From assembly GCA_963920705.1 (NCBI GenBank), contig OY987228.1, forward strand, positions 13,685,187-13,749,186: DNA of 64,000 bases, read 5' to 3'. This DNA comes from Odiellus spinosus. Its lineage: Eukaryota; Arthropoda; Arachnida; Opiliones; Phalangiidae. A model generated the notes under the pieces. That model was not told where the DNA came from. It ran no database searches and saw nothing but the letters and a program-made list of their open reading frames with translations. Positions 8,601-64,000 of this stretch are shown here, piece by piece (position 1 is the stretch's first letter; each line of letters begins with the position of its first letter). Both the position numbers and the translations under genes were made by a program.

Positions 8601-10178
8601 TCTAAATAAAAATCCGCTAAATATATATCGTAACTGATTATTCATTTAATTTGAAATTTCAATCATTAATTAATAAAATTAAGTTCCCACGCTAATAACA
8701 ATTGCACCACATTAATTATTGTAGGAAAAAAAAAACTAAATAAATTTTTCTGCATCTTACATTATCTACAAATAAAAAAAGCAGAAGAGAAAAGTAATAT
8801 TATGGAAATTTACTGTAGTTAATTCTCTTTTAACTATATTTAAACTAATTTTCAGCTGATATTAGGTAGTCCAAAACTTGCTTTCAAATTAAACCATAGA
8901 AAAAAAAATACACTGTTTTATTAAAACAGTATAAAAAAAATGCTTCTTGCCAGTATTAAAATTTTCAGGGTTATTTCTTATAATTAATGTTGGTCGAGAT
9001 TGTAATTTAACTGGTACCGATATGATAAATCTAAACCTACACCGATATTTTTGGTTTTGAGTTTTGTAAAAAGGATTTTCATGTTATTTCTAAAGCGAAA
9101 TTCATATTTTCCAGCCTAATTGATGTAACGAAAGCCATCTATCTTGAAATAGCACTATCTATTAGTTTTTAGACCATATATCGGGAAATCCTTAAAGTTG
9201 GCAACATAACTGTACCATATTGGTTCCAGCCCATCATTAAAGTCCCATTCACACTAGACCTTGGAATTGATTAAAACCATTTCAAAATGTTTCACACGGA
9301 TCAATTTTTAGCAACTGTCGAATGAAACGCTGACAAATCAGTTTATAATATAGGGGTGTGCAAGTCTTGTTCTTTTAGGTTTAGCATCAAAGAAAACAGC
9401 GAATCTTTGAGTCCTTAAGAAATGGCTTAGAGTTCAAAATTAATAAGTAAAGCCAATTTTGATTTCTATATTTTGTGCTTAAAACAATTCCTTGCAAATA
9501 TAATATTGGTTTGATATAACCATTTCAAATCAATTCAAAATGCTAATGTGAAGGTAGCTTAAGTTATAACATTTGATGACGCTCTAATATGTGGCAAAAA
9601 AAAAAAAGCGTAAAATTCTATACTTTTCGAGTTAAAAACTCAAGATGAAGAGAAGAAGAGGCAAGAAAAAAGAATCTTCCCTCAGCAATTAGGTTATAAT
9701 TAGTCCAAAAAAGTCTAATTATATACCAAATATAATGGCACTTATGGTAGGTAATACTTAATTTGTTTTGAAAGTAAAAAATTAAAAGTAAAACTACACG
9801 TACTGAGATAAAAGCCAAGAAGGCCTGAATAAAGCAAACTCTAAGTTCTAACACAAAGAAAAAAATGCAAATTTGTTTTTAACTTTTTCTCCCTAATTTT
9901 AAATCTCTACTATTTTTTCTTTTATAAATATCTTCACTAAGTTTTCAAAATAATCCATTCTTTTTAGCACCACAGCAAAATCAAACCAGTTGATAATTCA
10001 TTATTTCTCTAGAATCTTAGCTTCTCGCGCGCGTAATTTTTTTGTACCTGTAAATCCTATCTTTCTCGAGAAAATTCGCAAATTAAATGGGGGGCTTAAG
10101 AAAAAAAATAAAAAAATTAAAATCCAGCACATTTTGATATACTATGTTTAGTTTTTTTTGTTAGTATGACGATTTGTT

Positions 10179-12187
10179 TCATGGTGAACCGTACCCATGA
10201 TATTCATCCGGAGGTCTATTACCATATTTAGCCCTTCTTAAGGCGGCCAAGTGTTCGCGAGCTTCCTCCAGCTCTTTCTCCTTCCTTAATATTATCTCCC
10301 GAGCAACAATTTCTTGGGCAATTCCACCGACCATATGGTTATCAATAATTAAACTACGTTCGTCATCCTGTTCGATAGCTTGTTGAGCGGAACGAACTAA
10401 ATTGTCCGTGGCTTTTTTAACAGCATTGCCAGCAGCCTTTTTACGTAACATTTTATCAGAATTACAAGTTTAAACATGAACTTTGCTTAAAGAGATAGTG
10501 AAGATGGGGAATGAGTTATTTTAAATCAATTAAGAGTGAAAAAATATGCGTAAAAACTTAATATTGAGTAAATTAACGAGAAACCTTTGGTGAGTTTTAC
10601 TATGTTTTTACACACATCAAAAATAATAAAAAATAACAAATTCCATGTCTTCATTATCCCTTTAAAAATTTATAAAACTTATATAATATACCTGCAATCT
10701 TCTCATGGATTGCGAATCAGGATCAGCTTTAACCTTACAAGCGACCAAAAGTTGGGCTGTGGAACTCGCAACTTGTCGCGCAGCTGAAATCAACTTTTCT
10801 TCAGTAGCGTGTCCTTGTACTAAAGCATTGGCTGCTTCCACTAAACTATGAGTAGCAGCAGCGACCAATCGTGCCTTTGATTTTAAAAACCATTTTTAAA
10901 AATTATATTTTAAGCTATACTTGTCTATAAAAACAACCTAATAAGGTCAAATCTTACGGCTGATATAAGACCTTCGGACCATTGTCCATCATCGGAAGTG
11001 TATAAGGGTCGGGCACCAATTTTTCCAGCAGCGACTAACTCTCGCTGGGCCGCAGAGGCAGCTTTAACAAGAGCGGAAGTTGCGGCAGCGATAGATTTCG
11101 CAGCCTCTAATATCATTTCGTCAAAGTTCAAGTCATCATTTGTTTCCTAATCAATTTCAAGATCACTTTTAGATCCCTTCTAATAAAAACAGCTGCTTAA
11201 GAATAAAAATGGGTCATAAACTGATGATAATTTCTCCCGCTCTAAGTATATGTCTGATTCTTGGTTGACATTGAAAACACAACCAAGAATATCAAACATA
11301 TCTCAAAGCAACAGATATCTGCATTCATCCTCTTGTAGCGGGGAAAAAAATTTCCAAATAAAAATGATCTATAAACTAAACGAACCTTAATGCTCGTCCT
11401 TCTTGGTTTAAGACTAGCCAATTTTTTGGCAGCCGCGTCTATAGAACTGGCCGCACCCAAGAGTTCAGTTTCAGCTATGACAGTTGGATCATCGGGATCT
11501 ACCCAATCTGAACCTTTCATAGCTTCGGCACCATTCACCACTTCCGTTACAGCGTGAGCGATGCTCCTAGACATGCTAACTAAATGCTGCTTCCCTTCAT
11601 TGCTAGGTTTTTGAATGACCTGCGTAAAGCGCAATACAAAGATGGGTGGGAACAAATAAGCCAAACAATCCATCAACAAGGATATTTTAAATTAAATTTT
11701 TTTATACTAACATGATGGACTTTTTGAAGCAATTCTCGATATCTGATAGCGCAGTCCCTTCCTGATAAAAGAATCTTGGTATAAACTTCGTGAACATCAG
11801 TCGAATAAGCGGCAGACTAGGGATAAATTAAAATTACAAATTATTCAATCATTAGAAATAATTATTTGAGAACATATCACTTACTTTACTAGTAATAAGA
11901 AGATCGTATATCGCTTTTCGACCCATATTGGCAGCAACTATAACATCGTCTTGCTTGCAACTATTACCAGCAGCTACGGCTTTAGCAGTTGCTAATGTAA
12001 CTGGTTTTGTAACTCTAATCAAATCTTCCGGTATAGCTTTACGATTGGGGATTTCAGGCGAATCGTAAGCTCTTATTTCTTGTTCGATGGCTTGTATCGT
12101 TGATTCTAAAGCGCGAGTTCCTCTAGCGTGTTCGTCTTCCACTGCTCGAACAGTTTTCAAGAGTGACGTTACGTTCGTTACCATAAC
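10179..12187 (-). CDS. TLN1: Talin C-terminus: last R11 helix, R12, R13 (THATCH/I-LWEQ) and dimerisation helix, exons 32-37
   Basis: The last six exons encode about residues 2144-2566. They start with VMVTNVTSLLKTVRAVEDE and pass through WVDPDDPTVIAE, then LNFDEMILEAAKSIAAATSA, the actin-binding I/LWEQ (THATCH) core. The final exon holds a charged C-terminal helix, LRKEKELEEAREHLAALRRA, which corresponds to the antiparallel dimerisation helix, followed by a short tail ending HGYGSP and a TGA at 10181-10179. This module is the main C-terminal F-actin binding site of talin (ABS3) and would be lost from the alternative isoform proposed at 14217-14384. Confidence 0.95.
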
Positions 12188-15100
12188 CTAAATTTATAAA
12201 ACTATAAATTAGTTTTGCAAAATAGAGGTTTGATAATTAACACTCAATTATTTCAAAAACAAATATTAGTTAAATTTAGAAAATTTTAAATACTGAGCAA
12301 TGACGTTATTTAAAGGGAAACAAGCTGAGGCGGTGTACCCAATTGGAAAAACGTCACATGAAGCTTCAGCGAGATTACTTCATTTTCTGTCCACTACGAT
12401 TACTATGTAGATCTCACCATTATTCATATGACATTTACGCTCACGAGAGTATGTCGTTTTTCGACCTGGGTTCGCCGTCTCAGCTTATGTTCCTTTAAAC
12501 CAAACTTACACGTTATCATACCATTTTTAAAATAATATATTTCAATAACTTGATTTTTGATTAATCAATCATGCAATGCTGTTAAAAAGTAACACTTTCC
12601 CTATAATTTTTCCATGCGATGATTTATCACATTACATTGAACAACCTCTTATTTCTTTGTAAAAACTGAACATAACTGATCATGCCAATAAAAGTGGTCT
12701 TACTGGGATAATTTTTTTAATCCGTGGCGAATCTCCAAACAACAATTTTATGAAATTTTCTATTATTTCCGACGGATTTAGTTTTAAAATATTTTTGTCC
12801 AACTTAATATATGCAAATTTGCTTTTTATTATAAAACCTTGTACAATATTGATATATTATTTTTAAGTACCAAATATTAACGAGTGACTCTATGATTTAT
12901 AAATTTCATAGGGGCTCTAAGTATGTAATCAATTCTTAATTTTTTTGTATCAGTTATAAAGCTAAAAATATAAATATAGTTTTTACGGGATATTTAGGAA
13001 CTTTTAGTAAAAAATTTTGTTTCACTGTAGAAATAAAACTTGAATATGAGAGGAAAGACTAAGCTTACACATATAATGATAAAGAAAATCTATGTCTCAA
13101 ACATTTGAACAACTAAATAAGGTTCGCTAAGAAGCTAATCCTCAAACCTTTGTCATGAATCTTATTTTGATTAAACACACAATCTAAAACCAGTTTCATA
13201 GTGAAAAACTTAAAACATAAAGGCAGTGAGTTAACCCTTGACTAGCTCTAATCTTTGGTATATTTTTAGTATCAAGAGCCCATTAAAGGGTGTTATTAGC
13301 TGGTTTTTTTTCCCCCGATTCCTTATGTTAAAATATGCCTCCCTGAATTTTTTCACGATTTTGGAACAAGAAATTGTAGTAGAAAATCTATTTTTATATA
13401 TCCTAAACATGGGTGGGTTTGAATATAGCTACAGTGACTGACACGCCAATCAGTGGTCGTACTAAAAGAAAATATAAATTATCTCATGTGACTTTTTGCT
13501 CACTTAGTTTTACAATTTAAATTCCTAGAATTTCAAAATTAGGCTTAGGTGTAAATATGGTCATTTTTTTCCATGTTTAATTTAATCCACTGAAAAGCCT
13601 GGTTAGTTAGCATTCTAAGTCTCTAAAGCTCCCCTAGATAAAAAATTATATTTTAGATTCTAGAACATCACACGATAGACCCTAAGTTCTGATTGGTCGG
13701 TTGGTAGCTTCATTAAAAGTTACCTAAAATGGCTAGTTACCTAAAAAGGTTTAAAAAAATTGTGAAAAAATTCCAGAGTTTATATTTAATTACACAAAAA
13801 CCAGGGAAAATAAAAAACGCTAGTAAAATTTTCAGTCAAAAGTCTTCCTTCAAAGGTATTTTTTCCCCTGTCATCACAGACAATGAATATTTGGTTGTAT
13901 ATATTTCGAGAATAAATTTAGTTTGGTACCTTAAATTTTTCTCTTTACCGAGATTCTCCAAAAAATTGATATTTTATCCAATATAAACCTTGTGATATGT
14001 TTAAAAGTTTGGTCAATATTTAAAATTTTAAAGTGTATGTAGTATAATAAAACTACAATTTTCTCACGATCGCAGAGGGCTTAAAAAAGGAACAACGCGT
14101 GGAGCTAAAACGAGGCCATAATTAGCTATAAGGCACAAAATAAAATATGTATGTTATATATTAAAATAAATAACGCCTCAAGTTGGGTGTGTGTAGTCTA
14201 GAAAAGTTCTCCCCGACTAATTTTGGGATGAAGGGGGCAAATTCATAGCTTGAATTTCATCACTAACGGGTTCGACTAACTCCAAATTTTCAACCGAAAG
14301 CAACCGTATTAATTCTTCTTCTTGATCCGAGGCTAACCACTCGGGCAATTCTACGTCCGATGCGCAACTCTCGTAAGCTTGCACCTAACCAGCGAAGAAA
14401 AGCGTGGACCCAAGAGAAAAGAAATAAAAAATACGGGGAGAGAGGAAAGCGAGGGAGCGAAAATGGAAGAAGTAAAATAGAATAAGAAAGAGAGAGTGAA
14501 AAAGTGTCAGAGAATAGTACGTTTCCCACAATTAGACTTCTCATAAATTAGAAGAAACCAGACCAAATTTTAATAAGGAATTGGCTTAAATTAAAAACAG
14601 ATACACAGACTGGAATGATAGGAAAAACACAGAGAAACCAAAGCTTGGAAAAAGCTTTTTTCTTTAACAAAGGAAAAGCACCATGACAAAAAGGCCAAAG
14701 TGGACTTTAATCTTCAAAGGGGGTTATTTTTTAAAGTTTAAACTCGTCAAGCCTCTCTCGTATTTGTTGTCAAAGTTAGATGGGAAACGGTTTTACGATC
14801 ATTCAAAATTCAAACCAAAAGGGTTAATTTGTTTAAACTAGATTAAGGCCTTTTTTATTTAATATTATAAATTTTAAAAAACACCATTTCTCTCTCTCTT
14901 TCATTCTTGGTAATCTGGTTTTCAGGAGAAATAAATATTTTTCATCGCGACGCGCGTAGAGGAACTTTTTTTTTTTTTTTTTTTTTTTTCAGATAAGTCA
15001 TTGCTCAGTTTTTGCAAAATTTAAAAGTTAGTTTGTTGGAAAAATAAAAGCCACATAAATACTACATTTTTCTACTCAACTTTTTAAATATTATTAAAAA

Positions 15101-18100
15101 AAATGGAAGCCCAAAAGATGAAAGTCCACAGAAATGGAGACAAAATAAACAAAACGTGCCAATGAAATCAGGAAAAAAATAAATAAAAACTAGACTGCAC
15201 TAAACAATAAAATATATCTATAAAAAATAAATATATTATGTCGAAAGGAACTAGGAAAGCCTGGAAAATACATACTAGACTTTGATAACAAGTTATTTTT
15301 TATTTGATTTGGACTGATATAAACTCTAAGATTGACATCAGCAATTGAGTCTGTTTCAAATTAATCTGAATTTCGCCAATTTGATAATTAACTGTGAATA
15401 ATTACGAAAACTTTATAATTTTTAACCCATATTTTAAGAAGTCCAAATCGATAAGTTAAATAACTTTATTCCTGAGTCTAGAATCTTTTTAAGCCATGGG
15501 AAATAGCTACTAAAGGGATATCCTTTATGTCAGAAACCAAACCCCTTCATGTATTTTATATTATCTTCAAGTTTTCACGCAAAACGACCATGCCTTTTAA
15601 AGAAAGAAAATAAACTCACCTTAGCAGATTCTTTAAGATTCATCATAGCCGGATCATTAACGTTCTTTCCAGATGCCGCTTTAGTGGCTTGAATGAGATC
15701 ACCAAGAGCCGAAGCCACGTCTTTCACAGCGTTTATCAAAAGAACCTAATTAAATATTCAAAAAGTACTCTTTAAAGATCATTCATTAATTATCAATAAG
15801 AAATAATTATCATAAAAAAGTTTTTAATAACAAACCTGAGCTTCGGGATTATTTGAGCCTAAAGAAGCTGCTCCAAGTTTGACAACTTCAGCTAATTCGA
15901 CGATAGTAGTGACTGCATTTTGAGCCGCTACTGCTAACTGTTCTTGACTGGAGGCTGCTCCCGCTACTAAGGTTTTGGTGTCCTCAACTAACGCCTTTGC
16001 AGTTTTCAAGATGTTTTCGCTAAAACGTGATTTAAAATATAAAATTGATCCTAAAGTGGATAGGAAAAAAAAAAATTAGCACTAACCGATGATCTGAGAA
16101 GGTTTCAGTTTCATTGTCAGCGTGTAGAGTTCCAGCAGTGGCAAACATAATGGTAGTATCTAAGTCCCCAATGATACCACTTACGGTACTGGCAGCGTTG
16201 ATACAAGCTTGTGTACCCCTAGAACCAGCCTGGAGAGCAGCCAGGACAAATGAAACTTTTTCGGTGACTAATCTGGCATTATCAGCTACGTCTCGTTGAC
16301 TAAAACTATCTCCTGGATTGCTCTGACAAGAACCGGCGGCTTTAGTCAAATCAATACAAGCTGTGCCCAAATCTTGAACACTAGATCTAATTCGATTCGC
16401 AACATCATTATTGGACGTCGCAGCCACAGCTCCACCTGTATCGGAAGCCAGACTAGCAAATTGGTGGGATAAATTCGCCGCTAATGGTCCGAGTAAAGCG
16501 ATATTGGTGGTTGATTTCGTTACCTAAGTTATTTCAAAGTGAAAAGTTTAATTATTTGATTTTAATTCAAAAATATTAAAAGTCATACCATATCCTGGGA
16601 TATCCTGGCAATTTCTTTTGCGGAATTAACCATTCTTGTTTGATAATCCACAAACGAATCATCCCCATGTATCATGTAGCTTTCGTTAACTTTGCTGACT
16701 GACTTTGTGATGGTTTCGACTAAACCAGTCACAATTCCAGCCTCAGTGGCTGTAATTTCGAGCGTGTTGATCAAATCATGGAGGGCATCCCTCATGGCAT
16801 CCGAGGATTCGTCCAGTTCATTATGAACATGAACAGCCTAGAATTGAAATTAATTGTTTAAAAAATATATATTTCAATAAAGTGAATTAAGACGAGTATT
16901 TAATTACCTTAGGATTTCCACTAGCCTCCTTCGCAGCATAAACTAATTGAAGAGCGCATTCAGCGACAGTTTTAGTCTGATCAAGAAGGGCCATTTGTTG
17001 TTTCGAGTTAACAGTCTTTGAGGAACTACCAACAGCGGCGCTGACTAATGGTTCAAAGTAGCTAACCATTTGGGTAACACTGTGTCCTAATTTTTCAGCC
17101 TCTCCTTTAGCCGCGCTTCGAACCGGGTCAATCTTTTCCAAAATTTCAGTCGCGCTGCTTTCCATTTGTTGTTGAAAGCCTTTAAGAGAATTTTCCATTC
17201 TCGGTTTCAGATTTTGGCTGATGATATTTAGCGAAGCTTGATCTAGTTCTTTAATACAGGCGCTAAGGCTTTCAATAGCCTCGTCGCATTCATTTTGACC
17301 TGGAGCTTTGTCCCTAAAACCATTTTAAATTAAATTAAATTAATTAGATTAAAATAAATTATTAATGAAAGCAACTTACTTGATTGACATCATAAGTTTC
17401 TTCATCGCGTCAGAAACAGTTTTACTATGATTGGAAAGCGTTTGCCACGAGGGTGGATCTTTCGGGTTGAGAACTAAGACTTTCGCGGCGCGAATTACGT
17501 TACAAGAACTATCGATAATAGACTTTCCGGCTGATGTAATTGGTTCTTGGGCAGCTCTCGCTTTAGAACTTATCTTGGCTGGTACACTAGCGAATTCGGA
17601 GGAGCTCGCGAAAGTTGTTAAATTTTCGACAGCTTCAATAAGGGGTTTAGTAGCGGCTGAACAATTAGCGCGATTCTCATCGTTGGGATCTTGATCTAGC
17701 ACTTTAATTTCTTTAACTAAACTAGCGGTTGCGTTGGCGACGTCCTTAGCGGATTGAACAAAGTGACGTTTAGCAACAGGGTTGGTTGTTTTCGACGAAG
17801 CTACCCGACAAGAATTGCATAGAGAGGAAGTGTGTTTGGCTATTTTTGTGGCTGCTGATAGGATCTAAGGAAATTAATTTAGTCAGAAAGATATTTTGTG
17901 AGTAATAAATCAGTGGTCTAACTCACCTGTTGTTGATTGCTGGTTGGGTTAGTGAGATGTTGGCAAGCCATTTGAATTTCCTGGCTAGCTCTTGCAAAGT
18001 GGCCTAAATCAACGAGACCAGGTCTACCAGCAACGCTAGATGGATCAGAAATGGCAACTAAATATGCGGCTTGAGAAGAAGACTCAATAAGGCCGCAGAT

Positions 18101-21100
18101 AGCATCAGAAACGTCTTGTACGGCTTCTCCAAACTTTTCGTGTTCATTTTTCTTAGCGTGGTTAGCTATTCCATTAATGCCATCACCCAATCTCTGCAAG
18201 AATCAAAGTTTAAACACTAACTAGCTTTAAAATTTAAGAGGGATACTAGACTCTGAAAACAAGTTATTTTTAAATCGATTTAGACCGCTAAAATATGCCT
18301 AAATACAATATCAAAACTCGCAACAAAGGTTTCATGATAATTTGTGGTTAATCATCAAAGTTGTGAAATTAAGGTTCGAAGAAATTTCTGATTTATTTCA
18401 AAAAGACTCAATTGCTGATGGCAATGAACCAAAAGATGGGTTTGTAAGAAATACAAACAGTTAAATCGTATAATTTTTATACAATATATCATTGTCATCA
18501 GCATCTAACTTTCTCAAGAATTTTTGCAGTTGAAATTTCTTCAAGTCTAGTTAACGACTTGGATAATTAACTGTAAATTACCTCCAAATCTTTAGTGATT
18601 TTTTTATGAATATTAAGCATATTTTAACAATACATGTGCACTAAAACTAACTTGTTATTAAAGACTACTCAGACTAGTATACCTTCAAAGAGACAAATAT
18701 TATTAAAAGTACCTTAGATTTCTCCATGACGTGTTCCAAACATTCGAAATAAGAACCATCAGTTACAGGTTCGGATGGATTTTCTAGTAAAGGTCTCATC
18801 ATTTGGATATTGCGAATAGCGTTATCACACTCTTTTTGACCAGGAGCTGCTGAAGTGCAGACATTGATGAGATGGTTGATACTCTCAGTAACAGATCTAA
18901 TAGGAGATATAGTTGATTAGAGAATAAACCAATTGAATTGACTAATAATAATCTCACCGAGCAGCAGCAGCAAGTTGATTCTTGGCGTTTGGGGCACTAG
19001 GGTCAGCGGCGACAGATTTTGCAGCCACTAGAAGCTTGCTGGATACCATTGATACATTCTTCAAGCTTACAACCATAGAGCCTCTGACCTCAGTATCCTG
19101 TAAAAGATTTATCAGCGTGTTAATTCTTAAAAAATTAATTCAATAACCTTAAAACGTTAAAGTTAATGACCCCTTTACTACGTAATAATAATACCTTAGT
19201 CTGGCCAATCATTTCAACACCGCAATCGAGTAGATTTCCAAAGGCATTTCCAAATTTCTTAGCCGAACCGGCTAGTTCAACTGGAGCTGATCTAGACGAA
19301 GCTACAACGTCTGAAGCAGCCTCGTTCAAATTAGCGGCAGCATTATTCAAATTGCTTTGAATTTCGCTGAAAGGCTTAGAGGAGGACGGGAAATCATAAG
19401 TATTCAGGACTTGTGAGGCTTCGGTAATGCTTTTAATGGCATCATCGACATCTCTTTGTCCCGGTAAACAGTTGACGCAATTGTTTAAAGCCATTGAAAC
19501 TGTTTTAGCCACCTATTCAAAATTTTGGTTTTATAGATTTGACGAATTTGAATAGTTTTTTAGAAGTTTAAATTACTTGAGATAATCTTTGTTGGTTATT
19601 AGGATCATTTGGATTTTGAACAGCGTGTCTAGATTCTTCGATCAAGTAGGAAGACTTGTTCATAACATCACGGGCATTATCTATGATTTTCAACTGAACA
19701 TGTTGATCTTTACTAGTTGCGGCTACTCCTCTGACAGCCCCAGTAAGAATCTTAAGAGCATTTGCGGTGTCTCGGGAGGCAATACCGGTATAATTCTCAT
19801 TGCCCTATTTACAAATTTTGCCATTAATTTGACAGTAAATATTAAACTATCGTTAGATCAATTAATAATATACCTGCGAAGCGGCAGTAAGAAGTTGGGC
19901 CATGGAAACACCAACAGTTTTGGAAGTGGCGCCCAATTGTAATGCGCAAGTTTCACTCATTTCTCCCGGTAAAGGTTTAAGATCAAAGGCTTCGGCAGCT
20001 CTACGGAAAGCTTGCAATTCGTCATCCAACGAAGCAATAAGATTGAGTGCATTCTCAATTTCCAAATTTCCACAAGCTTCTTGAGACTATATTTGATCTC
20101 AAATTAATTTAAATAAAATATGATGATTATTTGATTTAGAAATTTAATTTACCCTATTGACGATAGTTCTAAGTTCAGCTAAAGCGGTTGACATTTCTTG
20201 AGAGGCATTGCCCAATTGTTTGGCGGAGGCTTGATCGGGGATTGTAGGTATAGCAGCCTTCGATGCGGCAACCATATTATTAGCGGGAGTGATAAACTTG
20301 TCGCATGCATTAATGAGAGCTAATTGAGCGGCTGGATTATCAGGATCAACGCGAGTTCCCTTTACTCCTTGTACAACGCGAGGAATTACATCGGCAGTTT
20401 CCTATAATTTATACCCAATTTGTAAAATTGAACCTAAAAATAATATATCTCATTTATAAACTAACTTTGCAATGGTAAATAAGTTCTTCATGGGCAGCTT
20501 GATTTCGATTATGAGGTCCCGAACATTGGGCAGCGGCTATATTTTGAGTAGCCATCGCTGCGGCGTGTTTAGCCGAATTCTAATACCAAAGATCAGCGGA
20601 TATTTACCAAGTTGTTTAATTTTACGTCAGAATTAAAAATTATTCTGAAATTATATACCTCTAATCTGATGATAATTTTTCTTTTAATAGCATTGCTAGC
20701 AGCTAGATTAGTAGCGGTACGCAACTCTTCAGCAGCTCTTCTGAGAGCAGCTTGAGATTGAGTATCGTGAGGATTACTAGCGCATCCTTTAGCGGCGTCA
20801 ACCATTCTAGAAGTGGCATCTGCTAATAATTTAGCAGCGGCTAAAAGCCTCTTTTGAATATCAGAATCGCCTTGAGAATCAGCTTCTCCTTTAATGGCTC
20901 CAATCAGATGAGCAGTGGCCTGCGCGTTAGAAGTTTACTAGTTTACCCCACTCTTAAAAGTTATTTTAAGTATAAAAAAAAGATAAATACCTGAGCTAAG
21001 ACCTTCGCTTGACGCACCATCTCTGTAGCATCACCTGTACTCTGGAAAAGCCTATCGGTAGCATCCAGAATGGTATCAACAGCGCCCTCGTGCTCGGATA

Positions 21101-24100
21101 CTCTAGTTTTTCGTTCAGGTGGCGACCTTATATGATTTAGAAGATCATTCAAAGCTTGCGTAACTTGAGTAGCGGCAGAGCCCAATTCCTTCAGTAACAA
21201 CTCATCACGAGTAGCATCCTATTTTTAAATATTTCACAGTATAAAAAAAATGGGACTGTGATTTTTAACTAAAATAAACTTACCCTTGAAGTTCCGACAA
21301 CTCCTTCCACGGCTTTTGCAACTTCTTTTGCAGCTTCCATAACTTGTTGTTGACAAGCGGGGCTAGCTATTGTTGGAGCGACAACTTTCGTACAAGCTAC
21401 CAACTGAGAAGTAGCGAGTGCACATTGGGTGGCTGAATTGATGACCTTATTTTGAACACCCTGATCATCGCATTTACTTGCTACATTCTTGGCTTTCAAA
21501 ACCAATGAAGCTGTAGCGTTAGCAACAGCTTTAGCCAATGAAAGTAAAATATCCTGAGTTTCTTTATCATATTCGTCTTCTTCTTCAATAGTATAGAGAA
21601 CAGCGTGACTAGCCTCTCCAACTCTACTCGCGGCGTTAAGAAGATTTTGTCTCGGTTCTTTCGAACCAGGTTCGGCCGCTCGGAGGAAGTCGGAAAAGGC
21701 ACTACATAGACTTCTCGCAGCTCCAAGAAGTCTTTCTCCGGAGTTATCATCATCACCCATTAAGGCAGCAATCATTTTAACATCTTTAGACATTTCCGGT
21801 AGGTTCGAAGTTCTGTTAAAAATTAAAACTGCATTAGGACTGGGGTTTTAATTTAAATTAACAAATGATTTTACATAGTGGTAATAGCGGCACCAACAGC
21901 GGGATGATCAACATCTTCTGGTGGTCCAGATGTTAAGGTTATAACTTGAGCAGTGGCAGCATTCATGGCCGCAATCTGGGAAGACACGTTCTGTTTTTTG
22001 ACATCCATCATATTTTGCCTCCATTGCAAGGAAGCGGGATCGGTTCCCATCTCTGGAAGTTTGACTTTAGTGTCTAATTCTCGCTCGGCAGCGTCTACCG
22101 CATCTTGACCAGAGTATATGGTTGTGAGTAAGGCTCTTTGTGGTTCACTAAGTTGGGCACTTTGCATTTGAGGATGCAGTGGCTACAAAGAATATTAGAT
22201 GTAAGATTAAATGTACAAAGAATAAATAAAAATGTGCGAATTCAATACATAAAATTATTAGTTTAACATGATTTAACTCTAATCTCACCTCTACAGGCAT
22301 TTTCATCTAATGTTAGCGTGTATTAGTGTTAGAAATATTAAAATATGAAGAAGACGTGATAAAATATTAGCATTTATGTAATAAAAATGAAAAAGGTGGC
22401 TCTACCGTGACTGGTGAATAAGTGTTATGAGCGTTTCCTTTGACAGATCCATACTGAGCGCCTTGCATGTGACCAGTGTGATATGGTTGTGCCCCTAATT
22501 GCGGTAGTGAAAAATAATGCCAGTGAGCATTCAAATAAGCTTTAAAGGTATACTAGGCTCTGGAAACAAGTTACATCAAAGGTTAAATTAATTATCACAA
22601 TTTTGAAATTAGGCTCTAAGAAATTTCAGACAGATTTGATATGGTTTTATGTTTTTGACGCATATTTTAACTATAAATTGATTAAAAATAACTTGTTTTC
22701 AGAGTCTAATATCCCTCTAATAGAGATAAATATACGGGTAATAAATTACCATTTGCTCTTATAACAGCGGGCAAAGCAATATTGCCGGAACTAGCGTGAC
22801 GGGGTGTAGGGGGTGCTTTTTGTTCCAAATATGAGGCCCTAAAAATATACGTAAATAAATAAAATAATATTTTACTTAATGATTTAATTTATTTACTTTA
22901 TAGGCAAGACACTATCTTCAACCATTGGTGCTCCTTCATCTCCTTCAATTCCAAAATGATCTTTTGCTTTTTTCTATTTCAAATTATAATTTAAAATATA
23001 ATTATTATCGTAAAATTGTAAAAATCCTATAGTTTTAACTAAGGTAACTGTTTAAATACCTTCTTTAAAATGATATCGATATATCCGGCAATCAGTTGTG
23101 ATATTTGTTCTCCTTCGGTGGTTTGAACCGAATAGTACATATCGGAATAGTCTCCAAAATCTAGGGTAAAACTATTAGGGGAGGCAGCCCATCTTCTGAC
23201 AGTCGTTAAGGGCCAAGTTTTCAAAATCTGCCCACAAAATTAAAACTCTAGTGATGAGTTTGAAAAAACTAATAAATTCAATTAGTTTTACCTCCTTTGT
23301 CTTTTCATCTAATCTAAGAACGCTATCCTTGGTAACACCAAGTAATCGCGGCGCTAGCTTGTTCTTCCCTTTCATTTTTTCTTTGACTAAGAAGAATGTA
23401 ACTCCGTAGGTTTTTAATGAACGGGCTAAGGCAACGTATTTCACTTTTGCATCTAGTTCAATAAGGCCAGAGTATTTCTTATGATTCTGGTGAAATCGAA
23501 TTACAATAATCAAAAAATTAATGAACATCTACTTATAATAACGAACAAACTAATGAATTTTAAAATCAAAACTTACGGGAAATATTTTCTTTTCAATTGC
23601 CTTGATTTTACAAAAATCTTTTGGTAAAAATTCCTTCAAACTAGAACGGAAGACTTAATTAAAAATTCTATTCGAGTATTATTTATCTTTCAAGCGGATA
23701 AGTTTTTACTAGAGGTAAAAGCAATATCCCTGCCTTTAGCTCTAGTCAAATCTTACCTTGAAACATTTTACTCACTCTAAAAATCCAGGCTTGTGTTTAA
23801 TTTCAACATGATCCCCAAACTGAATTTGACATTGAATGCCAGCAAATTCGCAAGCTTGGTCTACAGTAACTGGATGAGTTCCATTAAGAATGGCATCCCT
23901 AGCCTATTGTATGAATAAAAATTATTATAATAAAGTATTAAACATTTGATTTAAAGGGACACTAATCTCTAGACATTTTTTAATCAATTTAGTTTTGATA
24001 ATGTTTTTACGCATATTTTAACAACCTTTATTGATTAAAATTAACTTATGAGAATCTAGTACTCCTTTAAAATTAAATTATAAAAATATTTACTTGAACA

Positions 24101-54964: not shown

Positions 54965-55002
<38 letters not shown>

Positions 55003-57010
55003 AAGAGGAGGATTTTTTTATTCTTACTACTCAAGCTGAGTGGGAAATTATTTAGACGAATTATAAGTGGACCGTAAAAAATTAATAAAAAGCGTAGGCT
55101 TGTAGATTGAATCATAGATATACGGGACTAGATACGTCCGCTTTAGTATGAATTATACGAAACCCGAGGAAACTGTACCTCGCGCATGAATAGAAATTTA
55201 AAGGATGACACACTGAATTTGCATACTTAAAAGATAGAGCAGGAATAACCTAATTCTGATGTTATTCATTTCTATCCTTAAAAATTCCAAAACAAAAATA
55301 TTGAAAATTTAAAGTTGCAGGGAAAAGATGGGAGTCATGTGACTAGCATATTACGAGATTTGTAGGAGAATCAAACGATTTCTCTCCATGGCTCGAGTGT
55401 GTTACTTAAATTTTACTACAGAACGTTTAAATATTGGTAAACGCCAATATATCTCGAAACAATTATTCATTCTCAAGCCCCATTCTATACCCACAAGCTA
55501 GCTCCCAACAATGCTAGAAGAAGTGACATGGATTTCACAGAGCAAAACTGTGGAATTGAAAAGCCAACTGACCTACGGTTAACATACCATTGTTGTTGTG
55601 TCACAAGATCATTCGTACGCGAGGTTACTTCTACTTTTATATTCTCAGTAATAAACTCTTAAAAACCATATTCGTTAACTTGTAGTACACCCGTATAGTA
55701 TATTTTCCAGTTATAACAAGACCAGGAAGCTTCGTCACTAGCTCATTTTAAAATTTTGAGAATCTAAGTCCTTTACTATACGAATCTATTCTACAAAGAG
55801 TAGAGAATAATAAATTTATTGTTTTTTACTTTGAAAAAGATTGTGAAATCCAAAAGGGATTTTCCGTAATATTTTTCTAACGCCACAGGCGAATGGCATG
55901 CCAGACCTATTAAAGAGCCAAAGTCCTATGGATTTGTTTTTTTAAATCATCAAAAGAATTGTAGACCGGGAATTAACTGACAAAGAAAGATGAAACCTCT
56001 CAACAACCTAAAGAAAACGACTTAAAACCAAATATATCTCCCATTCCACGACCGGACAAACGTTAAAATTAATTAATTCGGCGAAAAGGAGGCGACTATT
56101 TTAATATCTACCTAAACGTGTTTTTGGTCAATACCTATAAAAATTAAATCTAAAGTAAAAAACTAAGTTTGAAGTTCTCAACTAATAAAATTTTTTACTA
56201 TACTTAAAATAAAAAAATGGCTCAAATGTAAAAGATAACATTTCGGCCGCTAATTTTTAAACAGGGTTCTTCATACATGCTTGGATGAGTATAAATACTT
56301 TGAATGGTGTTAAAAAAACAGTGATGGGGGGGGGGGGGGGTCAATTTAAAAGAGCCCCGCTGGGCCCGTTTTGTAAATTACGATTGCACATTCAAGGCCG
56401 AAAATAAAGTCAAGTGAAATCTGTATATATTTTGTTTTTAAAATCATTTGTATATATTTGATGAATGAGCAACTTATAATTAGTAGGAGAATCGATAAAA
56501 AATCATTTGATTTTCCTCTTCACCTTCTTTTTAAATGAATTCAATGCTTGCTTTTGATGCTATAAAACAGCTCCCGTACCACGTCCACACCATACCCAAA
56601 CAAAAATTCATATTTACCAACCTTGATCGTCCCATTTCTTTCGCAGGCCAAAACTTATTTTCATTACCAGCTACGTCCTTTAGCTTCTATTCTTAGAAAG
56701 GTACTAATTTTCATTATAATAGACATTAATTTATCGCACATATCATAGACAACTTCATTACTTTAACTACGATCGTTTCTGCGTTCAGAGTACACGTGGT
56801 ATTTTGCTGCTTGGATAAAAGAATGATGTAATGATGAGGGAGAGGGACGGACAGAAAGATAGTAATTTAAAGCCGCCCTCTATCGACATGCAATTTTTCG
56901 CGCGTTTATTCAAAAAAATAAACAAATTTCAGATTCAAATTCCCCGACTTTGCCTGGGATTTTCCAAAAACTACAAAATTTTTAAACCTTTTAAAGGCTT
57001 TCATATAACC
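53183..57010. other. AT-rich intergenic stretch
   Basis: No gene is recognised. It contains a heat-shock-element-like array at 54220-54243, a 32-nt A run at 54969-55000 and a 15-nt G run at 56326-56340. The plus-strand open frame 54463-54813 (116 codons) lies about 220 bp downstream of the heat-shock-like motif but has no recognisable domains; I do not call it. Confidence 0.45.
54220..54243 (+). promoter_or_regulatory. Heat-shock-element-like array
   Basis: The sequence reads GAA-2-TTC-2-GAA-3-TTC-2-GAA, five alternating units of the heat-shock factor motif with a single spacing error. Three units with correct spacing are enough for a canonical element. No heat-inducible gene is recognised nearby, so the motif may be chance or part of a repeat. 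Confidence 0.3.
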
Positions 57011-58014
57011 AAAAGTCTGATAAGACTTCATACAAAAAGTCCTTAACTGGCGCCCGGTTCTTGCTTTGGCTATAGAAAACATGTAATTTACAGTGCAGAC
57101 GACGCTAGTCTACAGCACCCAATGAGAACGAGATAGCTAAATTCAAAACTAGCCAATAGCTAGGCGAGTTATACGGAAGTCCTGAAAATAGTACGAAGGG
57201 AGGTTTCTTTATTTATTTATTAGGGGGGACAACGTACAAGGGGCCTTGAAGGCCCTTAGTGCACGGGAAGGGCAGGATAGTAAAACATTGACAAGTTTCG
57301 GGGAATGGAGGTTTCTTAAATGTAAACAAACGTTTAAAAAGGATTAATTGCGATTTAAAAGTTTAAATAGTACGAAGTGAGGTTTCTTAAATTTAAACAA
57401 ACGATTAAAACTCGGGCGTTACATCTTTAAACGATTTTTTAAATCAAGATGTTTCCTTAAACATTTCTTAGCATCAGGAAAATAATTGATATTTCAAAGT
57501 TTTTATTCAAACCCAATTCAATAGTTCAAAAAACTTATTACATTTCATTTAAAATTAGTTTAAAAGTAAAATAGGTTTACTTACAAAGTTTTGGGAGTCA
57601 TAGTGGTGAGAATACCAAAACAATGCAGCAGACGAACATAGTGAAACAACCAACAGCGATTCATGTGGTTAAATCAGGCCAATAATGGTTTAATAATTAA
57701 TATTGCTAATTAATTCTTGACTTAAAAACTTTCTATCGGAAAAATTGCTTTGAATTTCATTTCTTATTTGTTACCATGACTTTAAAAGTGGTAAAAGATG
57801 TCTTATATGTAAAAACCGGGGGAACTACTTTTTGCAACGCGTAGCCACTAATTTCATTAGATGTTTGGTGAAGTGGCGCAAAAGTCACGTGATTTTAGGT
57901 GCCGCTTTACAGAGATATCTGCCTACGCGTAGAAAGGGGAAAGCACTGAAAACAACACGTTTCAGGCCCCTGCGCCAGTTAAGGACTTTTTGTATGAAGT
58001 CTTATCAGACTTTT
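57011..58014. mobile_element. Element of about 1 kb bounded by perfect 43-bp inverted repeats
   Basis: The left arm 57011-57053 (starting AAAAGTCTGATAAGACTTCA) is the exact reverse complement of 57972-58014. The interior of about 920 bp holds the short hairpin GGGGCCTTGAAGGCCCTT near 57240 and no transposase. Short direct repeats of GAGGTTTCTTAAAT followed by TAAACAAACG occur near 57308 and 57380. The class cannot be assigned; a non-autonomous DNA transposon or a foldback element are both possible. Confidence 0.7.
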
Positions 58015-58699
58015 GATATAACTTATATTTTCAATAACCAGGTAATCCTTTAGATTTTGTTTTCTTTAATTGTGTTCGCCAAATTTAGTTTTTCCGCTCG
58101 TTATGCATACGTATTAGTTTTATACAACTGACACTTCAAAGCTTTTCTACAGATAATGATTGTAATTTCCTGGCTTCTTAAAAGATCTTCAAAGTCCCTG
58201 ACTTTTTAAAATATGTTAAAATTCTGACTTTTTTGGTTCATTTTCAAATTCCCTAATTTTTTTTTTTTTTTTTTTGATTTATTTTCAAATTCCCTGACAT
58301 TCGTGGTTCATTTTCAAATTCCCTGACTCATACCTATTTTCCCTGACTTGTCTTTTATACAAAAGATCTAAAACTTAATTTCAAGAAATATTTGTAAACA
58401 TACAACTTTTATTTCATTTGCACTGTGTTTAGACAGTTATGAATACATAATTAACAAACTCCTTCACAATCAGAAGCCAGATTTAATTTCCAAAAATTTG
58501 CATATTATCTTTTATAATTTTATATATATTAAAAGAAAATATGAAAAAAAATTACCCAATTAATGAATTAACCTTTCCGAAATATAAAAAAAAAAACTTT
58601 CCTCAATTCAGTAAATTAATCATCTCATCGGAGATCAAACTTATAACCAACAAATTAAATACACAGAAAATTTAATTATTATTACTTTTTAATTTAATT

Positions 58700-58734
<35 letters not shown>

Positions 58735-58873
58735 TTTTAAGTTGTAAAAAAATTGTACTACAATATATATTCAATATTCAAGTTTTTGAATAAGAAATTA
58801 CCAGTTTTGGGTTACGAAAACTTACAATGAAGCCTAGATTTCCCCCCAGAAAAATTGAGGTTGTACAGATTAT
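58015..58873. other. Sequence downstream of the aconitase/IRP gene
   Basis: This is AT-rich and holds a 29-nt T run (58703-58731) and a threefold short repeat TTCATTTTCAAATTCCCTGA at about 58235-58330. On the minus strand an ATTAAA lies at 58693-58688, about 180 nt past the stop codon, and an AATAAA at 58413-58408; either could be the poly(A) signal. No other gene is seen. Confidence 0.5.
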
Positions 58874-61800
58874 TTAGGCCTCTAACATTCTTCTAACCAT
58901 ATATTGTAAAATTCCACCGTGCCTAAAGTACGTTAATTCTACTTCCGTGTCGAAGCGCATAATAACTTCAAAGGTTTTTATATTATCAATCTATTCCAAA
59001 AGAAAAAAAAACCAAGATTTCTCTTTTTTAAAGCGATTCTTCCATGTTAAAACTCAATAAGAATATTAAAAATAGAATACCTGTACTGTTGTTATTTGTC
59101 TAGGATTGAGAACATCCGGAATATCAATTGAAAATTGTTCCCTTCCAGTTAAACCCAAAGTTTCCGCAGTTTGTCCAGGAAGATATTGAAGAGGAATAAT
59201 TCCCATTCCAATCAAATTGCTACGATGAATTCTTTCGTAGCTTTCAGCTATCACAGCTCGAACACCCTAGATTTTATTCAAATCAAATGATTAAAATAAT
59301 AAATAAGAGAAAAGGCTCTTATTGATTCCCAATAAAATATCATACGATAAAATTTAATATCTCAAAATTATAGGAAAGCTATAGAACAGCTGACTTTGAG
59401 CTTATCAATTTTTAATTTTACGGATTTTAGAGAGAACCCTGGATCTTCTCGAAATTATAGGCATTACAAAATCACAAGGAATGCAAGAAATATCAACGTA
59501 AATTAATAAAATTTATCTTACAAGTAAATAAGGTCCTTTAGCTGCCCAATCTCTAGATGATCCAGATCCGTAATCTTTCCCAGTTAAAATAATTAACGGA
59601 ATTAATTCCAATTTGTAGCGTTCAGCGGCATCAAATATGTCCATCTAAAAAGGAAAAAATAATTATTCAAAAGTTAGCTTTACGCAAGAGTAAAAACCTC
59701 GTTATAACTAAATTGTGGGGGGGGGGGGGGGACATTTTGTTAAATCCGTAATTTCATTATAGCTGCTAGGCCGTGGCTTTGCAGATGGTGTGGCAGGGAA
59801 TTACAAATACCAGAAATAGATGAACCGAAATTATCAACGAGCTATTCCTCTAACGCCACAGGCAAGTTCTCCGTTTCCCCTCTCTTAGACGACAGTTGTA
59901 GCCCCCTCCCCCGCGGAATTTCGCCTAGCCGAGAAACGTTGAATGCGCCACCTGGCTTGGTTTGCAGCCGTCGCTACGTGGGGCGATCAGTTTCCCAAGA
60001 TCCTCCTCGGTATTTCATTGAGGCCGAGGAAGCCCATTCCCCCAGTGCTTACCCTCCCCATTCACTCCAAATAAAATGCATTTCCCAATCTAAGCTCTCG
60101 TTGATAATTTCGGTTCATCTATTTCTGCAAATACTGTATTTTCGTTATAAAGAGGCTTTTCCTGTAAATGTATTTTAAAAGGAAATGTTTACCTCTTCAC
60201 CAGACGGAATGTAGATAGTTTTGGGACCGGCTTTGGTCATAAATTTATTTACAATTCTGATATTGGCGAAGGTTCCCCTAGCCATCACTGCATCGTTACC
60301 TCTTCTCGACCCGTAAGAATTGAATTCCCTAGGAGTTAAACCTCTGGCAGCCAAAAATTTAGCCGCTGGACTATTTCTAGCAATACTACCAGCTGGAGAG
60401 ATATGATCGGTCGTGACCGAATCTCCCAAATTAAGTAAAACTCTAGCATTTTTAATAGCCGAGAAAGGAGCTGGAGTTTCGGTCTAGAAAATATAAATAT
60501 GTTTATTAATTAAAAAGAAAACTAATAGTTATATTATATTAAAAAAATTCGTAAATTCACCATATTTTCAAAAAAAGGTGGCGATTTAATATAAGTAGAA
60601 CTCTGGTCCCAAGGATACATCATACTTTGAGGAGCTTCTAAACTATTCCATTTGACAGTACCCTTTTGTATTTGAGAATATACTTTCTGGAACATGGCCG
60701 GAATGACAAATTCTTTCTCGACCTTTTGAATATCGTCTCTAGTTGGCCAAATATCGCGTAGGAAGACATCTTCGCCATTAATACCTTTACCTAAAGGTTC
60801 CGTTTCAAAATCAATAGAGACAGTTCCAGCCAAAGCATAAGCCACAACGAGAAGAGGAGAAGCCAAGTAATTGGCTCTGGTATTAGGATGAACTCTTCCT
60901 TCAAAATTACGGTTGCCCGAAAGAACTCCGGCAACTACCAAGTCCCCTTTATCAATGGCTTCGGAAACGGGAGTAGGTAAAGGTCCCGAATTACCGATAC
61001 AAGTCATACAACCGTATCCAACAACGTCGAATCTAAAAATGATTTGAATTTAATCCCTAAATTCTGTAAATTGTTAAAGATATGATCTTATTTACCCGAG
61101 TTTCTCTAAGTAAGGAGTGACTCCGCTTTCTCGAAGATAATACGTAACAACTCCACTTCCGGGAGAGAGACTGGTTTTGATATAAGGGGAGACTGATAAT
61201 CCTTTTTCGACAGCGTTCTTAGCCAACATACCAGCTCCTAGCATGACCGAAGGGTTGCTAGTATTGGTGCAACTAGTAATAGCGGCGATAACTACTGACC
61301 CGTGTTTTAAGATGTATTCGCGATCTTCGAATACGAATGGTACGACAGTTTCAAGTTTGTCATTAGGAATTCCAAAACCTTTGAAGCCAACCTATTAAAA
61401 AGTAAAATGATTAATTCTCAGTTCTTAAATTTAACTTAATTAATCTTACTTTGCTTCGCAAACATTGAAAAAAGTCATTCTTCATGTCCACGACTGGAAC
61501 GCGATCATGAGGTCTCTTAGGTCCAGATATTGAAGGAACGACACTCGCAAGATCTGAAATAAGTATCAATTTTTAAGAAATTAATAAAAATTTCTCAATT
61601 TATATTTTAACATGTTTAATTTAATTTACCTAATTCAACAACTTCGGAGAACACGGGGTCCTGACTGGGATCATTATAATCTCTAAACATTTTCACGGCT
61701 CGCAAATAAGATTCAACGTAAGAGATCATAGTTTCACTCCTCCCTAAAATGATTAAAAAATTTGGTAATTTATCAGAGATTTGGAAGCGGTAACGCAGAA

Positions 61801-63971
61801 ACTATAGGAAAAAATTTGTCAGGGTTCGTACAAAATTTTTCCTTTCAAAATCTATGACTTTTAAAAGTTTTACTATCGCCAATATTACCAATATTAATTT
61901 ATTAATATTTCGCAATGTTGACCAAAACCAAAATCACTAACTTTCTGCAATTTTTTTAAATCTCTGACTTATCCAGATTCCATACGAACCCCGTTTGACC
62001 TCTAGATATTTTACGGCTTCTAAAGGACAGAAACAGATATAAAAGGATGAAACCCAACTAACCACTTTGACGTAAATATTCTAAGCTTTTCTGATCAACA
62101 GGAAAGAAACCAACGGTTGCTCCATATTCTGGACACATATTTGAAATTGTTGCTCGATCGGCGATAGATAAATCAGCAACCCCAGGTCCGAAGAACTCTA
62201 CAAATTTTGAAACCACACCCACTTGTCTTAGGTGCTATTAAAAATTAAAATTTAATTATTATTAACAATAAAATTGCGAAATAAAGGATTAAATTCCAAG
62301 AAATTAATATACACCTTAGTTATGGTCAAAACAACGTCAGTAGAAGTTGCCAAAGAATTAAGCTTCCCTATTAGTCTATATCCAACAACTTTGGGAAGAA
62401 CCATACTGATACTTTGACCCAACATAACAGCTTCGGCCTCAATTCCTCCAACACCTAAATTAAATAATATAAGCTGAGTTAACAAAAATAATATTTATGG
62501 TCAAATATCATGAATTTTTCTTTTTTTTGTAGCAACTGATTCAAGGAGAGCTCAACAAAAAAGTCAATGCAATTAGTAATTATACGGTTTGCAGAAGATT
62601 TCAATTTCCAGACTACGTTAAATTCATCTGAATATATTTTTACATTAAACTGGTGTTTAAAAGCAAAAACAATACAGAAAAATAGGGCGGAAAATAAACA
62701 AGATTGAGAACTGCTTTCAGGAGAGCTATAAAATTCGCATATTTTTTTGGATTTGCAACCGTTTTGAGAGTCAAAAGCTTCTTTATCATATAATCGTCTC
62801 CAATTTTCTGAAATAATGAAGAATTTCCCAGAGTTTTTTTACTCGAAATCATTTTCCCTGATATTGGTTTACAGTTTTACTTTTCACAAACCATGGTATG
62901 AAATCTGACTTATCCAGGTTATCCCTGACCAATTTCAGCTATTATCTGTTTATCCATGATCATTTCTGCATTTTTTTCAGTGGGAGAACATCGTAAAAAC
63001 TAAAAAGGTCTTAATAAAATCTCCAACTTATTCCAGACTTTCATGGGATTATTTTTAAAATCCCAGAACTTTTGCCCGGTTATCCAAGTTCTGTACAAAC
63101 CCGGAATTAGTCTACTGTTCAAATTCAAAATGAGCAAGCCACAAATTCCAAAAAAATTCACGAGACTTGTCCTTTAAGAGTTTAAAAAAGTTCTTATATC
63201 AAATTTGTACCCCATCCGACAACTCCCAGACCATTGATCATAGTCGTATGAGAGTCAGCTCCGACTAAACTGTCAGGATAAAGGAGTCCGTCTTGATTAA
63301 AAACCACTCTGGCCAAAAACTCCAGATTGACTTGATGACAAATTCCAGAACCAGGGGGAATTATCATTGTGTTTTTAAAAGCTTCAGCTCCCCACTAGAA
63401 GAGTTCAAAAAATATTTAATTTCAGTTCCTAAAACAATAAAAAAAAAATTAAACGAAGCTAATCTTATTTTTAATTACTTTGAGGAACAAAAATCTTTCT
63501 TTGTTGCGTTCAAATTCAGTATCTTGGTTTTTCTCGAGCGATTCTGCACTAGATAAATGAAATTGAAATTTTAATATTTATTTGTTTCGAGAAGAGAGCA
63601 CGTTACGTCTAACTAACCCGAGAGATTTTTGGGAATGAAAAGGACACTGTCCTAATTTTGTATAAAGTTCTAATTCACTTTTACTAAGACTAACGGATGT
63701 AGCTGAGGTATAATTTAGACTAGAAATGGCGCGACTAGAATTTGACACTAAATGATTATCGTTGGGCGATGATTTAGAAGGGAACAAAGACATTTTAGAG
63801 TGTCTCAGAGGTATATCGGCTTCTCGAGCTCGTAAGGCTGATACCACCTTACACTTTCCTCCATCACGTAAGCAGTCATTGCATTCTTTGACGGAGGAAA
63901 TAGACTCCCTGGTCAAATGAGACTGCCCTTTAAGACCACCACCGCCAGGGTTCGGTGCATTGGACATATTA
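58874..63971 (-). CDS. ACO1: Cytosolic aconitase / iron-regulatory protein, 3' part (13 exons), 5' end outside the window
   Basis: The family isomerises citrate to isocitrate when it holds a 4Fe-4S cluster, and without the cluster binds iron-responsive elements in mRNAs. Exons in transcript order are 63971-63618, 63548-63479, 63394-63211, 62454-62315, 62234-62063, 61743-61630, 61553-61450, 61391-61096, 61032-60561, 60483-60193, 59644-59522, 59266-59081 and 58990-58874 (stop TAA). All phases agree. About 874 codons are present; about 140 N-terminal residues lie beyond 64000. The cluster cysteines are intact: [10 protein letters not shown] in exon 61391-61096, and GYGCMTCIG (61010-61008 and 61001-60999). 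[23 protein letters not shown] and GSGSSRDW keep the active-site residues of IRP1, which vertebrate IRP2 has partly lost. The first exon in the window carries an IRP2-type insert. Confidence 0.97.
59811..60127. repeat. Foldback element inside an IRP intron
   Basis: The arm 59811-59843 (CAGAAATAGATGAACCGAAA, then TTATCAACGAGCT) is repeated in inverted form at 60093-60127. The 250-bp interior is GC-rich and includes CTAACGCCACAGGC, which recurs near 55880, suggesting another family member there. The plus-strand open frame at 59939-60178 lies mostly in this element and is not called. A 15-nt G run lies just outside at 59717-59731. Confidence 0.7.
61820..61993. repeat. MITE with AGGGTTCGTAC ends in an IRP intron
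   Basis: The left end reads CAGGGTTCGTACAAAATTTT and the right end, read inward, GGGGTTCGTATGGAATCTGG. Phrases such as CTGACTTATCCAG recur in the intron 62455-63210, for example near 62910 and 63090, and CCCTGAC blocks occur at 58235-58350, so relatives of this family surround the gene. It is non-coding. Confidence 0.6.
62455..63210 (-). other. Largest IRP intron in the window (756 nt)
   Basis: It lies between the exon ending VVGWG and the exon starting [12 protein letters not shown]. It is AT-rich and contains fragments related to the AGGGTTCGTAC family (ACTTATCCAGGTTATCCCTG and TCTGTACAAACCCGG). A minus-strand open frame at 62640-62852 has no resemblance to a protein I know and is not called. 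Confidence 0.6.
63618..63971 (-). CDS. ACO1: IRP2-like insert exon (118 codons) in the iron-regulatory protein
   Basis: Acceptor tttacag precedes 63971 and donor GTTAGT follows 63618. The exon opens [12 protein letters not shown], matching the NAPNPGGG that opens the vertebrate IRP2-specific insert. It then has CNDC-x6-C (codons at 63883-63881, 63874-63872 and 63853-63851), a Ser/Asn-rich middle, and LGQCPFHSQ (Cys at 63646-63644), matching the CPFH heme-regulatory motif near the end of the IRP2 insert. It is longer than the 73-residue vertebrate insert, and the cysteine spacing differs. It starts after 2 nt of a codon and ends after 2 nt of a codon, with 354 nt in all, so it can be skipped in frame. 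The next exon continues [19 protein letters not shown], as in IRP1. Confidence 0.85.
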
Positions 63972-64000
63972 CTGTAAAGTGTAAAGTCGTAAGACTAGGA

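Follow-up and report, generated by a model that had tools for sequence, protein, structure and literature searches.

The right end of the window, the 64,000-nucleotide stretch of DNA analysed here, carries a minus-strand cytosolic aconitase/IRP1 gene in which a predicted in-frame exon encodes a segment of the IRP2 type. We think it probable that this is a single arthropod IRP gene of the kind that existed before duplication, with an IRP1 core and an exon 5 whose product carries the IRP2 loop, and that the exon predates the IRP1/IRP2 split. The segment has long been described as specific to vertebrate IRP2: its 73-residue domain is called unique to that protein, and C168, C174, C178 and C201 within it have been proposed as iron or heme ligands (PMC2267205, available text). 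The same source states that, according to several laboratories, iron-dependent degradation does not require the human insert, and that opposing data exist. The segment is now found in an arthropod IRP1-type gene and appears older than vertebrates. If it predates the duplication, animals with a single IRP gene offer a way to study its disputed function, and whether the IRP1/IRP2 split divided two functions between copies can be put to the test.

Gene Model and Exon 5

The window (C4:13685187-13749186) lies in a 25.3-Mb contig, one of 286 in a genome of 443 Mb. The coding region is complete once the adjoining DNA (locus L002) is added. Our hand-built model has 17 exons, with GT-AG borders at 16 of 16 introns. 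In window coordinates, except for exons 1-4, its features are as follows.

Exons 1-4: extended coordinates 64973-64161, past the right end of the window (locus L002), minus strand
Exon 5: 63618..63971, minus strand, IRP2-type insert; 354 nt, in frame, phase-2 introns on both sides; placed by splice borders, alignment to 6vcd_A and coding statistics
NAPNPGGG (exon 5): 63938..63961, minus strand, residues 145-152; first N 8 positions past the D of DF, the same distance as in human IRP2
Cys cluster C171-x2-C174-x6-C181 (exon 5): 63851..63883, minus strand; codons 63883-63881, 63874-63872 and 63853-63851
CPFH (exon 5): 63635..63646, minus strand, residues 250-253; 11 residues from KNQ, equal to human IRP2
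Exon 6: 63479..63548, minus strand; joins exon 5, or exon 4 in frame when exon 5 is skipped
Exon 7: 63211..63394, minus strand
Exon 8: 62315..62454, minus strand
Exon 9: 62063..62234, minus strand; donor likewise begins GTTAGT
Exon 10: 61630..61743, minus strand
Exon 11: 61450..61553, minus strand
Exon 12: 61096..61391, minus strand; cluster Cys561, equivalent to human IRP1 C437
Exon 13: 60561..61032, minus strand; cluster Cys627 and Cys630
Exon 14: 60193..60483, minus strand
Exon 15: 59522..59644, minus strand; GSGSSRDW, its Ser equivalent to human IRP1 S778
Exon 16: 59081..59266, minus strand
Exon 17: 58874..58990, minus strand; includes the stop codon

A sequence-only reading had placed an exon at 63618..63971, followed by one starting at 63548, and its coordinates, strand and splice-site borders proved right. 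As read from the sequence, the acceptor AG lies at 63973-63972 and the donor GTTAGT begins at 63617. Both products of the model are open. With exon 5 included, the frame has 1014 codons and encodes 1014 aa; because both flanking introns are in phase 2, skipping the exon leaves an open, in-frame protein of 896 aa, which is a standard IRP1 in the model and has the usual IRP1 junction (human counterpart DFNRRADSLQKNQ).

An IRP1-Type Core

The N-terminal 344 aa match PF00330, and the whole protein aligns to 2b3x over almost its full length. Core identity is 621/886 (70.1%) with human IRP1 and 540/879 with human IRP2; the two human proteins share 543/879. Human and rabbit IRP1 (ACO1; 2b3x, 3sn2) have no segment like exon 5, and the 896-aa product is the form that corresponds to them. 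At the active site, positions 536 and 778 hold R and S in both the window protein and human IRP1 and K and N in human IRP2, so that the IRP2-type substitutions are absent from the window gene. At 19 positions that we take to be catalytic or cluster positions, the window protein equals human IRP1 throughout (19/19), whereas human IRP2 differs at 2. The proposal that the remainder of the protein is IRP1-like therefore stands. Part of the original argument for it does not: intact cluster cysteines cannot discriminate between IRP1 and IRP2 because human IRP2 carries all three, and it is R536 and S778 that separate the two. With the domains, cluster cysteines and catalytic residues of a cytosolic aconitase/IRP1, the protein is predicted to have the corresponding enzymatic activity.

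Among 10 positions that we take to contact the IRE, 7 are as in human IRP1, K379R and N685S differ, and 438 is T in all rows. R379 and S685 are the letters of human IRP2 and also the commonest letters in the bacterial outgroup described below (8/9 and 6/9). Taken with the IRE-bearing ferritin genes of the same genome, the contact residues agree with an IRP1 for which RNA binding is predicted. The two variable sites are the same IRE-contact positions reported as variable in sponges (PMC7034838, available text).

Descent and Copy Number

We compared 12 proteins without insert residues: the window protein, human IRP1, human IRP2 and 9 bacterial aconitases. The insert was removed from both insert-bearing rows before alignment, and the human IRP2 row was 9 residues short at its start and 2 at its end. 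For the outgroup, 10 loci were taken of 80 prokaryote loci (80 of 377 relatives), and one with a partial frame (L030) was dropped. In the resulting tree, which holds 3 animal proteins, human IRP1 and IRP2 form a pair with support of 99/96, and the window protein lies outside it. Forcing the window protein to join IRP2 or IRP1 lowered the log-likelihood by 9.5 (AU p = 0.022 and 0.024, respectively). A tree showing a true vertebrate-type IRP2 ortholog would have overturned the earlier reading; this tree, within its few animal rows, places the gene elsewhere, and descent from the IRP2 copy, by which an IRP2 is defined, is not what it gives. Since the window gene falls outside the human pair, the exon is probably older than the IRP1/IRP2 split.

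The two human proteins differ at 336 sites, for which an outgroup letter was accepted when at least 7 of the 9 bacterial rows agreed. Where the outgroup has the IRP1 letter (69 sites), the window protein has the IRP1 letter at 63, the IRP2 letter at 4 and another at 2. Where it has the IRP2 letter (21 sites), the window protein follows IRP2 at 10, IRP1 at 7 and neither at 4; at the 246 sites undecided by the outgroup, the counts are 79 for IRP1, 57 for IRP2 and 110 for other letters. When the genome was searched with pieces of the core, the window IRP gene alone was found, plus one match in the mitochondrial aconitase, and we read it as an unduplicated animal IRP gene.

These data bear on the possibility that the gene is instead the IRP2 ortholog of an old IRP1/IRP2 duplication, after which IRP1 was lost and IRP2 stayed IRP1-like. 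The insert, the single IRP gene and the human IRP2 letters at the variable IRE-contact sites 379 and 685 would all suit such a history. A published neighbour-joining tree also allows an old IRP2 split: in it, the IRP1s of vertebrates and invertebrates form one branch and the IRP2s of vertebrates a second, and its root is open because its 16 sequences include no outgroup (PMC8947174, available text). If rooted between the branches, that tree would mean an older IRP2 split, at odds with a late duplication. However, the same tree groups invertebrate IRPs with IRP1 rather than IRP2, and our own tree joins the human proteins to each other and rejects the window-IRP2 pairing, though at a modest AU p. 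Just 4 of the 69 sites changed in IRP2 are common to the window protein, and the letters at 379 and 685 are those most common in the outgroup. We therefore regard an IRP2 ortholog as unlikely. Under either root, an insert common to IRP2 and to an IRP1-type arthropod gene would be ancestral to both.

Neither NAPNPGG nor CPFH occurs in any of the 80 prokaryote aconitase loci (80 of 377 relatives; three forward frames), and a scan of viral contigs with exon 5 and the core gave one relative only, an aconitase without the insert. One contig from a viral collection (L110, 4566-7313) carries a 915-aa aconitase near phage-tail-like genes and is maybe a prophage edge. The aconitase on L030, a 3.3-kb bacterial-MAG contig, is 62% identical in its best segment (276/473 aligned), the top value among the 80 kept loci, and is possibly eukaryotic contamination.

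Coding Character of Exon 5 and Comparison with Published IRPs

Codon log-odds for exon 5 are +12.3 in frame and -13.8, -39.8 and -27.8 in three other readings. Its GC3 is 0.325, compared with 0.322 for the other exons of the gene, and at the stop rate of introns of the same gene, 117 open codons would arise by chance with a probability of ∼1.3e-4. By codon use, GC3 and open frame, exon 5 thus looks coding, and we predict that it is spliced in.

The competing view treats exon 5 as a relic that splicing seldom or never includes, with the 896-aa product as the functional protein. Skipping indeed preserves the frame and yields a textbook IRP1, and the cDNA-derived IRPs of Culex (901 aa) and earthworm (890 aa) have no room for the segment. 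Against a relic, the exon is open across 118 codons with the codon use and GC3 of a normal exon, its splice sites are intact (the first six donor bases are those of the exon 9 donor), and the motifs at both ends of the insert are kept letter for letter. An equivalent segment is, moreover, present in a cloned ark-clam cDNA (PMC8947174, available text). On balance, we judge a relic to be rather improbable.

The ark-clam protein, SbIRP-1, was obtained as a cloned cDNA of 942 residues, and its Ser138-Gly189 (52 aa) is described as not found in vertebrate IRP1s and as having low homology to other molluscan IRP1s (PMC8947174, available text). The borders of this segment equal those of the window insert: DLVIDHSIQV 124-133, Ser138-Gly189 and EFERN starting at 200 in the clam compared with DLVVDHSVQV 127-136, Ser141-Gly259 and EFERN starting at 270 here. 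The likeness is one of position, and the inserts are 52 residues and 118 codons long. According to the same paper, the clam IRP1 binds the ferritin IRE; the recombinant protein was examined by gel shift, and the effects of knockdown on ferritin were examined as well. In its available text, the paper compares the insert with vertebrate IRP1s and draws no link to the IRP2 insert; IRP2 is said to be missing from the ark-clam genome, and only IRP1 is reported for the ark clam and for sponges (PMC8947174 and PMC7034838, available text).

Several other invertebrate IRPs have the same core and no room for an insert of 50-118 aa, judging by the reported lengths in Culex and earthworm and by cysteine numbering in the razor clam (Cys443/509/512). 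To our knowledge, the Drosophila and Caenorhabditis elegans proteins of the family are also without an insert. Three sponge IRPs, aligned with rabbit in 902 columns, likewise share the core and leave no room for it (PMC7034838, available text). A statement that known invertebrate proteins lack such an insert agrees with these proteins but needs qualifying, given the 52-aa insert at the same borders in ark-clam IRP1 (PMC8947174, available text). Among the literature matches listed (titles and abstract openings), none described an invertebrate IRP2-type insert.

Likeness of the Insert to That of Human IRP2

Compared with vertebrate IRP2 (IREB2; 6vcd_A), the window insert occupies the same place in domain 1, starts with NAPNPGGG, carries a three-Cys cluster and ends with CPFH (human insert end, CPFHLQPVPEPETVLKNQ). 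The reading frame bears out the order and place of these motifs suggested from the letters alone, and the distances to the core are equal at both ends. After the N of NAPNPGGG, the first and last Cys of the cluster follow at 26 and 36 positions here and at 27 and 37 in human IRP2. Between the ends the two differ: the spacing within the cluster is x2/x6 in the window protein vs. x5/x3 in human IRP2, the stretch from cluster to CPFH is 46 residues longer, and the middle is barely alignable. Overall, the window insert is the longer (118 codons vs. 73 residues), and it sits in a protein that keeps R536 and S778 and lies outside the IRP2 lineage by the tree. The domain-1 insert with these motifs, a mark of IRP2, is present in the window gene. 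Freedom from a domain-1 insert, a mark of IRP1, is seen in the exon-skipped product alone and is lost with exon 5.

Given the insert's own composition, the probability of finding the motif at its fixed offset by chance is 2e-10 for NAPNPGGG and 1e-6 for CPFH, and the joint value, as a product of the two, is near 2e-16. The insert was shuffled 20,000 times, and no shuffle scored as high as the real sequence when aligned to the human insert globally or locally. The best shuffles came near it (29.0 vs. 32.5 and 61.5 vs. 63.0) because the middle barely aligns and the signal sits in the two ends. A chance likeness to human IRP2 is very unlikely. An independent insertion whose motifs converged might explain the poorly alignable middle and the additional 46 residues, but it would have had to arrive at both motifs at equal offsets and at insertion borders identical to those of human IRP2, and we consider it highly improbable. 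Vertebrate IRP2 DNA arriving as contamination or by transfer, or a misassembly, would fit the likeness to a segment described as vertebrate-specific but is scarcely credible: the segment has one match in the genome, between exons of the IRP gene within the 25.3-Mb contig, its GC is 0.416 compared with 0.410 for the other exons, and it has diverged from the human insert.

For the exon-5 protein alone, AlphaFold gave a mean pLDDT of 46.6, with 0 of 117 residues at or above 70; this low confidence fits disorder or simply a missing alignment. By eye, the window's GQCPFHS misses the seven-site heme motif HRM_r at position 2, where Q is outside the list, whereas human ILCPFHL satisfies it (motif from PMC3904948).

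Host Animal and Iron-System Setting

The argument from the insert had been made conditional on an invertebrate host, and the mitochondrial contig indicates one. It has an arthropod-type gene order in which cox1 abuts cox2 and both leucine tRNAs are on the nad1/rrnL side. Pancrustacea generally have trnL2 between cox1 and cox2, whereas in chelicerates and myriapods both leucine tRNAs are generally by nad1 and rrnL (PMC2194727, available text); the order thus fits an arthropod of the chelicerate/myriapod type. The arachnid gene orders described in PMC2231378 (available text) include none that matches. On this contig (C286), trnI and trnQ lie beside trnL1 and away from trnM at ∼8800-9960, and ∼870 bases between trnL1 and trnL2 have no assigned feature. 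Partial cox1-like copies occur in several places on contig C17, three of them with an identical 219-base extent and score, and are probably nuclear mitochondrial DNA.

The genome also encodes an FBXL5 gene, with the F-box and repeats visible by eye. Its hemerythrin exons match the human FBXL5 domain, one at E 8e-21 and two neighbours at 0.02 and 0.05. The Pfam hemerythrin model PF01814 had no match in the genome, likely because the domain is split across exons. The C terminus matches at E 5e-12 and has four cysteines in common with human FBXL5, which we take to bind an iron-sulfur cluster. Near the gene, a tandem repeat with an ∼18-base unit (L024, ∼1577-2003) is open in several frames. Two of three ferritin matches, both on contig C16, have an IRE ∼125 bases 5′ of the ATG, with scores of 44.1 and 31.6 bits, the second below the Rfam cut-off of 34; no IRE was found at the third match, on contig C14. 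Around the IRP gene itself, no IRE was found at Rfam cut-offs in window positions 55000-64000 or, up to E 1, in positions 1-3000 of L002. Judging by the FBXL5 gene and the ferritin IREs, the animal appears to have an IRP-IRE-FBXL5 system; degradation driven by FBXL5 is a prediction.

Proposed History and Mechanism

Because the insert matches human IRP2 at both ends with equal spacing and the gene is, by our tree, no vertebrate-type IRP2 ortholog, the segment most likely arose before vertebrate IRP2 did. The proposal that it is ancestral and was lost in some lineages gains support from this match and from the tree, with the polarity of gain and loss being our inference. The last common ancestor of vertebrates and arthropods would already have carried the exon in its IRP gene, and the position of the clam insert would extend this to molluscs. 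It would have been kept in IRP2 and lost from vertebrate IRP1 and from several invertebrate lineages or isoforms.

In the arthropod, the long protein would most likely act as an aconitase or as a repressor of ferritin mRNA depending on its 4Fe-4S cluster, as IRP1 does. The flexible insert, with its Cys cluster and CPFH, may add a redox- or heme-responsive site that senses heme, iron or oxidation, and this site could tune turnover or activity alongside FBXL5. As a cassette that can be skipped without loss of frame, exon 5 could allow IRP1-like and IRP2-like forms to be spliced from one gene. A bolder extension, which we offer tentatively and think doubtful as a whole, is that the ancestral animal gene made both forms through the cassette, that vertebrates divided them between an IRP1 without the exon and an IRP2 that retained it but is no longer an aconitase, and that arthropods and molluscs keep the undivided bifunctional gene with a heme- or redox-responsive insert.

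Other Genes near the IRP Gene

Just upstream of the IRP gene and on the opposite strand, exons on the plus strand of L002 (2638-3871) resemble those of what is presumably a class I fructose-bisphosphate aldolase. Farther away in the window, a minus-strand gene at 11242-21847 is one that we take from its appearance to be talin-like; positions 16032-16523 match PF08913 in one of the two frames scanned.
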